Assembly: GCA_003989075.1 (NCBI GenBank)
Contig: RXIX01000013.1
Location: 1-49,275 of the forward strand
Source: Candidatus Competibacteraceae bacterium
GTDB taxonomy: Bacteria > Pseudomonadota > Gammaproteobacteria > Competibacterales > Competibacteraceae
Length of the DNA: 49,275 nt
Direction of reading: 5' to 3'
A program made the translations under genes and the position numbers. Below, in pieces: positions 41,578 through 42,909 of the stretch. The notes beneath the pieces were generated by a model, which worked only from the letters and a program-made list of their open reading frames with translations, made no database searches and was not told the origin of the DNA. Each line of letters opens with the position of its first letter. Within the stretch, counting starts at the first letter, position 1.

Positions 41578-42309
41578 TCAGCGCCGCGACAGACGATGGG
41601 AATGCGGCGTGGATGGGCACGGCGGACACTGCGGCTCTTCCCGCGGTGGCGCCACAACCGGTACCTCCAGCGTATCATCGGCGACGATGGTACGTCGCGC
41701 TGAGATGACCATGCGGGTAATCACTGGATGCTGGCCCAGCTCCAGCCGACGCAACGGCAACACCACAGCCTGCTTGCGCATGACACGGACCTGGGGGGAT
41801 TCCACCGCTGGCGTGTCCGGCGCATGGATCTGGCCATCGACAAACAGCAGCGGCGCCAGTTCGTGCAGAGCCCGCCAGTAGACATGGCGCTTAAACGATA
41901 CCACGGCGCGCAGCGGATACCAGTAGTCCACCCACTGCCAATGGTCGAATTCCGGACGGTCGGTCAGATCCAGGCGCACCGCATCCTCGCCGCCGAGCAT
42001 GCGCAGCAGGAACCAGACCTGTTTCTGGCCGATGCAGGGCGATTTGCCCCCCCGGCGCACCAGACGCTTGGGCAGACGATAGCGCAGCCAGCCCTTGGTG
42101 CAGCCAATCACCTGGACATGCTCCGGGCGCAGCCCCACCTCTTCGGCCAGTTCGCGAAACATGGCCTGCTCAGGCGACTCATCTGGCCGGATCCCACCCT
42201 GGGGAAACTGCCAGGAGTACTGTCCAATCCGCCGCGCCCAGAACAGGCGCCCTTCGGCGTTGCACAGAATGATGCCGACGTTAGGCCGGTAACCCTCCGA
42301 ATCGATCAC
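41578..42309 (-). CDS. rppH: RNA pyrophosphohydrolase RppH with C-terminal extension
   Basis: RppH removes pyrophosphate from mRNA 5' ends and so starts decay. The GTG-initiated product opens [19 protein letters not shown], followed by SWQFPQGGI and the Nudix box (about 38-60; key residues G38, the REL-EE core in [10 protein letters not shown]). [15 protein letters not shown] and [12 protein letters not shown] are also family phrases. Usual RppH has about 160-180 residues; this one has 243, with an extra tail of some 70 residues (hydrophobic-basic, then Pro/Cys/His/Arg-rich) of unknown role. The rppH-ptsP order is conserved in gammaproteobacteria. Confidence 0.93.
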
Positions 42310-42601
42310 GGTGCCAACCGATTTTTTGCAATGAATTGTTCATCGTATTTTTCCATACCCGTCAAGCATTGCGCCACTGAAATCCACGCGAACCCGGCCA
42401 CGGGCCGCGCCCAGGGCCATGCAGCCTGCCCATTCAGCTCGGAACCTTCCATACCGGCCCCAGCCGCTTACCCGAATTGCGCGAAAAGCCTCGCCCTTAC
42501 TTCGGCTTCGCTCAGTACAGGTCAGAGCGGGGATGGATCGCGCGGCGAACGCAGTTCGCCTGATTTTTTCTATACTGCCTGAGTCGGCCCTCGCGATGAC
42601 G
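42310..42601. other. Divergent gene-free region, left half
   Basis: Between rppH (minus) and the alpha-2-macroglobulin gene (plus) no convincing gene lies here. The stretch next to rppH (42310-42360) is AT-rich and probably holds its promoter. Around 42480-42600 the sequence has fragments such as CTTCGGCTTCGCTCAGTACAG and CTCGCGATGACG, which resemble pieces of widespread small dispersed repeats built around GTCATYGCGAG; this is pattern memory, not proof. An orphan terminator-like hairpin at 42544-42569 is listed separately. Confidence 0.4.
42544..42569 (+). terminator. Orphan plus-strand terminator-like hairpin
   Basis: GGCGAAC-GCA-GTTCGCC (7-bp perfect stem) is followed by TGATTTTTT on the plus strand. 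No plus-strand gene is seen upstream; rppH runs the other way. It may end an unrecognised small RNA, or be part of a repeat. Confidence 0.5.
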
Positions 42602-42839
42602 CTACCGACGGTAGTTCGCTCTTTGGCAACTCAAGGTATGCGGTTGTCTTCGGAAGACGAAGACGTAAAACCTTAATCGTGTTCAAAAGCATTTGCTTTC
42701 GGCCCACCTGTTGCCGGTAGGTTGCGCCACCGACCGACGTGTTCGGTCGGGGAGATCAGAGAACATTCAGTGTTCTCGGTACGGGGCATCGTACCCTCTA
42801 CAGAGAAATCCTCGTCCTTTAGGCCGGGGAGAATGTCAA
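42602..42839 (+). mobile_element. IS200/IS605-type right-end remnant with omega-RNA-like hairpins
   Basis: A chain of hairpins runs to the right end: CTACC/GGTAG (42602-42614); GTCTT/AAGAC near 42636-42648; a perfect 8-bp stem CCGACCGA/TCGGTCGG (42730-42750); 7-bp GAGAACA/TGTTCTC (42759-42777); 6-bp GGTACG/CGTACC (42778-42795); and a final CC-TTTA-GG-centred stem (42810-42829). It finishes with GGGGAGAATGTCAA. Right ends of TnpB-bearing IS605/IS1341 elements carry just this kind of 'CCTTTAGG hairpin then GAxGTCAA' end, and it forms the 3' scaffold of the TnpB guide (omega) RNA. No tnpA or tnpB gene is present; the frame around 42600-42676 (VVRSLATQGMRLSSED) could be a decayed TnpB C-terminus. 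The left border is uncertain. Confidence 0.5.
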
Positions 42840-42909
42840 AATTCTCAGCATCAGACTTGCCGGATTCGCCCCACCGTGCTGTCCGTCCCTTATGCCCCAG
42901 GAGTCCGCA

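Follow-up and report, generated by a model that had tools for sequence, protein, structure and literature searches.

The window, a 49,275-nucleotide stretch of DNA, contains a 368-bp gene-less element of the IS200/IS605 type, the interior of which encodes an RNA supported by covariation. The 3′ part of this RNA is homologous to the end of a tnpB gene together with the right end, and the RNA is likely to provide a guide (omega-RNA) in trans for TnpB proteins encoded elsewhere in the genome. The data show both ends of the element, its copies and the RNA fold; they also show that its 3′ domain is homologous to tnpB elements whose ends match, and that the genome has a tnpB frame with the expected catalytic residues. 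The use to which the RNA is put is most likely as a guide of TnpB acting in trans.

Ends and copies of the element

The element was assigned to positions 42472-42839 of the + strand, as the repeat runs from TTAC (42468-42471) to TCAA (42836-42839), and full-length matches to it were found in the own genome and in other genera. It is located between a − strand open reading frame (ORF; 41578-42309, encoding a putative NUDIX-like protein) and a long + strand ORF starting at 42892 (encoding a putative alpha-2-macroglobulin-like protein). Neither tnpA nor tnpB is present inside it. According to PMC5934647, the signals of IS608 are TTAC, AAAG, GAAT and TCAA; all four occur in the element family, with AAAT for GAAT in the window copy. 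The left flank TTAC (+ strand) corresponds to the IS608-type left cleavage site described there and is also the expected TAM. The left end (42485-42532, + strand) contains the guide tetranucleotide AAAG (42485-42488) and putative palindrome arms (42489-42496 and 42525-42532), such that at 42468-42488 the AAAG comes after TTAC and before the left-end (LE) palindrome, as in IS608. TTAC followed by CCGAATTG is also found at L002, L003, L004 and L068, while L082 has TTAC and then one C fewer and L064 has CTAC in place of TTAC. A 24-nt insert in the left end (42499-42522) is also present on contigs C51 and C3, and the left part of the element matches stretches adjoining tnpA/tnpB loci of the own genome (L008, L009, L011 and L012). 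Further left-end matches in the own genome lie on C144, C148, C70, C58 and C64; those on C148, C70 and C58 are interrupted by a gap, as in the window copy.

The right guide tetranucleotide (42806-42809, + strand) is followed by the right end (42810-42839, + strand), which consists of a palindrome (42810-42829, the CCTTTAGG-centred stem) and the TCAA end (42836-42839); the sequence GGGGAGAATGTCAA covers 42826-42839. The tetranucleotide is GAAT in eight, GAAG in one and AAAT in three (the window copy L001, L072 and L073) of the 12 right ends parsed. These 12 right ends have 12 different flanks, and the predicted guides therefore differ among the copies. In addition to AAAT for GAAT, the window copy has a mismatch in the right-end (RE) stem, so its mobility may be lost. 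With near-terminal palindromes, several copies and no transposase gene, the element has the attributes of a PATE.

The own genome (G000) is a member of the Candidatus Competibacteraceae, a family placed within the Gammaproteobacteria by NCBI. A search of this genome with positions 42560-42880 revealed four further places, with full-length matches on C38 and C36 and a match on C51 that is cut by the contig end. Some match at E ≤ 0.001 was present in 21 of 39 genomes of the family (own genome included). Five of these genomes, from four genera (G000, G013, G014, G029 and G038), contain nine copies in all that are full or nearly so, each spanning about 300 nt or more of the query of 350 nt. A pattern scan of genome contigs, from which records of the own genome were possibly excluded, gave ten stretches, including ones in Contendobacter odensis and Competibacteraceae UBA2788, apparently on the same contigs as in G013, G014, G029, G034 or G038. 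The model R1 had matches in 7 of 40 genomes of the order and, in a sample of 369 from the class, in 3. Three copies with a shortened 5′ part, L080 (G029:C55), L073 (G034:C444) and L071 (G013:C295), still finish in the right end with TCAA. The orientation of the copies relative to neighbouring genes showed no clear bias. Distant-mode searches of plasmids (with L111 and the window RNA) and of phages (with L111 only) gave no match, and the scaffold pattern had no matches in viral contigs. A single viral-contig match to the module pattern (L113) was rejected; judged from its sequence only, it resembles phage coding DNA and has no other features.

An earlier note on this DNA had described a lone right end at 42602-42839. 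The feature is real, the range given for it was too narrow (the true element is 42472-42839), and the left end had been missed, as matches span 42468-42839. That no tnpA or tnpB is in place was confirmed for the element, and the related ends which the note proposed to look for elsewhere in the genome were found, including those on C38, C36 and C51.

Just 5′ of the RNA, a terminator scan identified a hairpin followed by a T-rich tract (42544-42568, + strand). It is not significant by count since one was found and 0.7 are expected in shuffles; such a terminator-like hairpin could stop read-in from upstream. A weak −10-like TATACT is present at 42571-42576 (+ strand) with no −35 at threshold, and a sigma-70 promoter scan passed no promoter and gave no clean one for the RNA.

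The interior RNA and its relation to tnpB

The structured RNA, which we interpret as a streamlined omega-RNA scaffold, was mapped to 42583-42839 of the + strand by covariation and by the covariance model R2, the position of its 5′ end being provisional. Folding of the single sequence was only moderately better than that of shuffles (z −2.28 for 42466-42840 and −2.39 for 42580-42840). Pair counts were made on nine of the 16 R1 matches from the order search, all full copies, aligned with MAFFT without the use of structure, and the consensus has 78 pairs. Partial or contig-cut matches (L071, L072, L073, L074, L080, L082 and L095) and the contig-cut L004 were left out of these counts; L095 (26.6 bits) was viewed as sequence and excluded from the alignment. 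With the caveat that this alignment is also the source of the structure, that the copies are related and that cells and not events are counted, 94.9% of cells are paired (88.8% in shuffles), 19 pairs have double changes (10.4 in shuffles) and there are 45 double-change cells (15.2 in shuffles), with none of 500 shuffles as high on any of the three measures. Further pair types number 50 against 44.7 in shuffles (4 of 500 as high). In a slid control, with partners shifted by 1-3 columns, 40-46% of cells were paired and 3-7 cells had double changes. As L001, L066 and L070 have one whole hairpin block in common, the double-change cells within that block count one event repeatedly. The shape of the interior RNA is conserved on the + strand by compensatory changes across four genera.

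Helix 8 (42727-42752, + strand) is the richest in double-change pairs (6 of 11), several unrelated sequences forming one shape in the nine-copy alignment; helix 7 (42700-42724, + strand) was also drawn from the covariation. G-U is the commonest pair at 9 of the 78 positions and is invariant at three; since the conserved G-U pairs would be C-A mismatches on the opposite strand, the + strand is likely to be the RNA strand.

The covariance model R2 was constructed from six full copies of other genera only (alignment A6). Against the 49-kb window it gave 42622-42812 as its sole match at E ≤ 10 (199.1 bits, E 9.2e-67), it scored the other Competibacteraceae copies tried from 223 down to 30 bits, and three HEARO loci used as negatives gave no match at E ≤ 1. 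Searches of Rfam at gathering thresholds found nothing in the window. Below its gathering threshold, HgcC (RF00062) matched the right end in the window (22.1 of 50 bits, E 0.0053) and four of six loci searched, namely L066, L070 and the tnpB elements L063 (32.3 bits) and L076. L066 also had a match to sot0042, L065 and L002 had no Rfam match at E ≤ 0.5, and HEARO, the IscB omega-RNA (RF02033), was rejected as an identity for the element, which gives no match to it.

At the 3′ side, the final 67 nt of the query have counterparts at the 3′ ends of tnpB elements from G000 (C44), G029, G038 and G011; the right end on C3 matches as well, but contains an insert. R2 finds helix 9 (42759-42777, + strand) and helix 10 (42778-42795, + strand; GTACGGGGCATCGTAC, matching the final tnpB codons, with covariation) in all six close tnpB elements searched (L056, L057, L063, L076, L077 and L081; E 0.00012-0.00021), and R1 finds both helices in the same six at E 0.0003-0.00073. 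The arms of the GAGAAUG/CAUUCUC pair of helix 9 are 54 nt apart in the six tnpB elements compared with 5 nt in the model, and in L063 this 54-nt spacer codes for the HDRDVN motif and a portion of the zinc finger. The shortening would have occurred in the gene-less element and not in the reverse direction. Helix 10 of L081 is formed by GAUU/AAUC compared with GUAU/AUAC elsewhere, a compensatory change inside coding sequence. The more distant tnpB of G011 (L079) was aligned by R2 with many gaps (E 0.00054), and L131, the tnpB of G154 that is the parent of the class B RNAs described below, had no R1 or R2 match at E ≤ 10. On the evidence of these alignments the 3′ part of the element is homologous to the end of tnpB plus the right end. 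For helices 7-8 and the tnpB zinc-finger codons, 0 to 87 of 500 shuffles were as high over the 12 pairs tested, and homology between them is tentative.

The successive hairpins, the CCTTTAGG-centred stem and GGGGAGAATGTCAA reported earlier are all present, with the covariation of the nine copies as the decisive test. The suspected decayed TnpB tail proved real as homology to the tnpB end (helices 9 and 10), and the idea of an IS200/IS605 right end that doubles as the scaffold of a TnpB guide RNA is backed by the tnpB 3′-end homology and the conserved fold. The boxA-like stretch and 45-nt module at the 5′ side were absent from the tnpB elements compared, so the RNA is not simply their omega-RNA; as this 5′ part also recurs in unrelated RNA families, the element is not a plain deletion.

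Candidate partners are encoded in the own genome, which has six OrfB_IS605 matches. The tnpB on C3 has ends that match those of the gene-less element, and its product matches NCBIfam guided_TnpB (235.6 bits) and solved TnpB chains such as 8bf8, which we take to be the ISDra2 TnpB. The catalytic residues of the C3 protein (D, E-alt, D) lie in IDLG, at a Glu separated by six residues from the first CxxC, and in HDRDVN; it is without the canonical RuvC-II Glu, the Glu being at the alternative position described in PMC10711439. Rearranged clades are not necessarily inactive (PMC10278001). Of the Y1 TnpA matches in the own genome, one is in an 81-aa frame near a contig end and the other is weak, and the presence there of an intact TnpA with such ends is uncertain. 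ORFs that appear Y1-like by eye adjoin tnpB in G038 and G029.

A 5′ module common to three RNA families

The 5′ part of the RNA contains GCTCTTTGGCAA (42618-42629, + strand), a putative boxA-like stretch identified by comparison with TGTTCTTTGAAAA of the own ITS and with TGCTCTTTAACAA of the class A RNAs of G154. In the G000 ITS, GTTCTTTGAAAA is found at the expected place of boxA, and GCTCTTTGGCAA is for this reason called only boxA-like. It is followed by a 45-nt module, AAGGTATGCGGTT-stem-GTAAAACCTT (42631-42675, + strand), that is common to two other RNA families. These came to light through G154, an unrelated genome from another family, which was also matched by R1. Among 369 genomes of the class, only G000 and G154 contain the motif GGTATGCGGTT-N-GTAAAACC, the former four times and the latter fourteen times, and the reversed-motif control gave zero; a search of the four-genome order of G154 again gave 14 copies.

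In G154 the module leads two multi-copy families, class A (L109, L110, L114, L116, L118, L125, L153 and L154) and class B (L120, L122-L124, L126, L127 and L155), which differ in their tails and ends. Six of these module-led loci were searched against Rfam and had no match at E ≤ 0.5 over the RNA. Among the eight class A copies, TGCTCTTTAACAA, presumably an E. coli-type boxA, precedes the module in four, has one change in three and is absent in one, and the ends are GTGTCAA in five, GTGTTAA in one and cut or different in two. The seven class B copies have a CTCCAA end (four), close variants of it (two) or no such end (one); six of their tails match the 3′ end of L131, an open tnpB frame of 415 aa, and the seventh matches other tnpB remains. 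No source tnpB for the class A tail was found among the 21 TNB loci of G154. These 21 Cas12f1-like TNB matches (L131-L151) include many short or partial ones, and the genome is full of tnpB remains. At L122/L137 (G154:C87), a decayed tnpB tail lies directly 5′ of an RNA that begins with the module and has a second tail of its own, which looks as though the RNA unit was attached to an older element. A weak HEARO-like match (26 bits, E 0.068) is present in L120 at 520-827 (G154:C27), about 700 nt from the class B RNA.

The module was aligned in 24 of its 26 copies (L003 and L004, identical to L002 there, were omitted). There are 59 double-change cells compared with 22.8 in shuffles (0 of 500 as high) and at most 11 in slid controls. 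The number of double-change pairs (8 compared with 6.7) and of further pair types (15 compared with 16.1) give no support, as 78 and 440 of 500 shuffles, respectively, were as high.

Since the module recurs before the window RNA, class A and class B, one leader heads three scaffolds. We tentatively suggest that this leader (AAGGTATGCGGTT-stem-GTAAAACCTT, preceded by a boxA-like stretch in two families) and the three scaffolds, all with ends of the transposon type, could represent TnpB guide RNAs freed as stand-alone genes, forming a modular system in which many guides serve one nuclease in trans. Two or more of the scaffolds would stem from distinct tnpB genes, and the host genomes belong to two families of Gammaproteobacteria that are not related to each other. 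If this is true, the freed guide RNAs resemble a scattered CRISPR array made of transposon parts.

Alternative explanations, proposed use and known systems

The RNA could instead serve something besides TnpB, either as a leader or regulator of a neighbouring gene or as an RNA that is bound by a host factor and carried by the element. The 5′ module with different tails in three families, the boxA-like stretch and a co-oriented ORF start within 140 nt downstream in 5 of 13 copies by crude ORF calling (L001, L002, L065, L067 and L072) would be in keeping with such a role, which is nevertheless unlikely given that the right end and TCAA terminate all nine aligned copies and that the flanking ORFs vary from copy to copy.

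An inert deletion scar of an IS605 element, or plain PATE, in which the tnpB core was lost, the ends and tail remain and the structure is a leftover, was one of the options in the earlier note. There are precedents both for fused-end PATEs and for IS605 remnants that retain a C-terminal piece of tnpB (PMC3119063 and PMC7290912), and the window copy has the altered right guide AAAT and the 24-nt LE insert. A scar is quite improbable, however, because compensatory changes keep the RNA shape across four genera (45 such cells, 0 of 500 shuffles). There are also invariant loop stretches among the aligned copies, and where no left end is recognised the RNA is kept, fully in L065 and L066 and partly in L071. 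A folding constraint on single-stranded DNA as the TnpA substrate, and not on RNA, has a model in the IS608 ends, recognised as single-stranded palindromes (PMC5934647), but is very improbable, as 14 of the 19 double-change pairs are in the interior helices 5, 8 and 10 and 3 in the right-end palindrome (helices 12 and 13), and the conserved G-U pairs suit RNA.

A gene-less element whose RNA guides a TnpB encoded elsewhere would combine two of the options raised earlier, a MITE moved in trans and an RNA used by a TnpB elsewhere in the genome, and this combination appears to be the best fit of the three. According to PMC8612924, the reRNA of ISDra2 spans the 3′ end of tnpB and the right end and continues into the flank for about 16 nt; TnpB is thought to cut the donor joint, which leads to the element being copied back. 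If the window RNA behaved in the same way, it would end within the flank that starts at 42840, and TnpB would be directed to TTAC+guide; the guide segment predicted in this way (42840-42859, + strand) is 5′ of the + strand ORF starting at 42892. TnpA provided in trans would have placed the element at a site after TTAC, and the RNA would be transcribed from the element and finish in about 16-20 nt of the right flank. TnpB loaded with this RNA would cut the emptied TTAC+guide site and repair from the sister copy would restore the element, which would in this way survive its own excision, just like an intact element. For the 5′ module, the predicted role is to replace the lost leader of the tnpB mRNA, in start and stability, and the boxA-like stretch to shield the untranslated RNA from early termination.

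TnpB guides are usually regarded as coming from the tnpB mRNA of their own element. In the present case, a transposon lineage without both proteins would have kept and streamlined its guide RNA over genus-level divergence. If the RNA acts in trans, many guides scattered over the genome depend on a single TnpB, which is a natural step from transposon guides to CRISPR-like arrays. For E-alt TnpBs, the element is a compact scaffold already tested by evolution, and the common 5′ module makes the needs of a stand-alone omega-RNA directly testable.

Stand-alone omega-RNAs of IscB are known. HEARO is, like the element proposed here, commoner than its nuclease in the own genome, with 16 matches (10 above the gathering score; HEARO loci L014-L021) compared with one RRXRR/IscB match (L062/L022), whereas its fold and end differ. 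Seven of eight HEARO loci fetched are 49-156 nt from a contig end; as they adjoin contig ends and repeats break assembly, the lack of iscB genes may come from the assembly. PATEs with TnpB have reportedly also been studied in Geobacillus. In a literature search that covered titles and abstract openings and few subscription papers, no stand-alone TnpB guide-RNA element with such a leader was found to be described.

In boxA-led CRISPR arrays, boxA precedes untranslated guide RNA, as proposed for the window element, and is reported to help it (PMC7862264); the window element differs in being a single guide in a transposon, with a degenerate, putative boxA. The omega-RNA or reRNA of TnpB (ISDra2, IS605) has, like the window RNA, the tnpB 3′ end and right end, an RE hairpin within 10 nt of the end and a predicted guide derived from the flank, whereas the window RNA is outside any tnpB mRNA, has 54 nt of a helix cut to 5 and has another leader. 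The PATEs of the IS200/IS605 group (Haloquadratum and Halanaerobium) are likewise gene-less with both ends. Elements that lack a transposase but have palindromes like those of IS605 are described in PMC3119063, as are IS605 remnants in which a short C-terminal piece persists. A 271-nt PATE-like element of Halanaerobium retains, besides the RE, 28 nt of LE and the final 58 nt of tnpB (PMC7290912), a retention of the tnpB end and right end also seen in the window element. Unlike in these, the interior of the window element forms a conserved RNA that shows compensatory changes, in which one helix is shortened and to which a 5′ module belongs that was absent from the tnpB elements compared. PATEs are the nearest known kind, and what is new is the evidence of RNA maintenance and streamlining, and the common leader.
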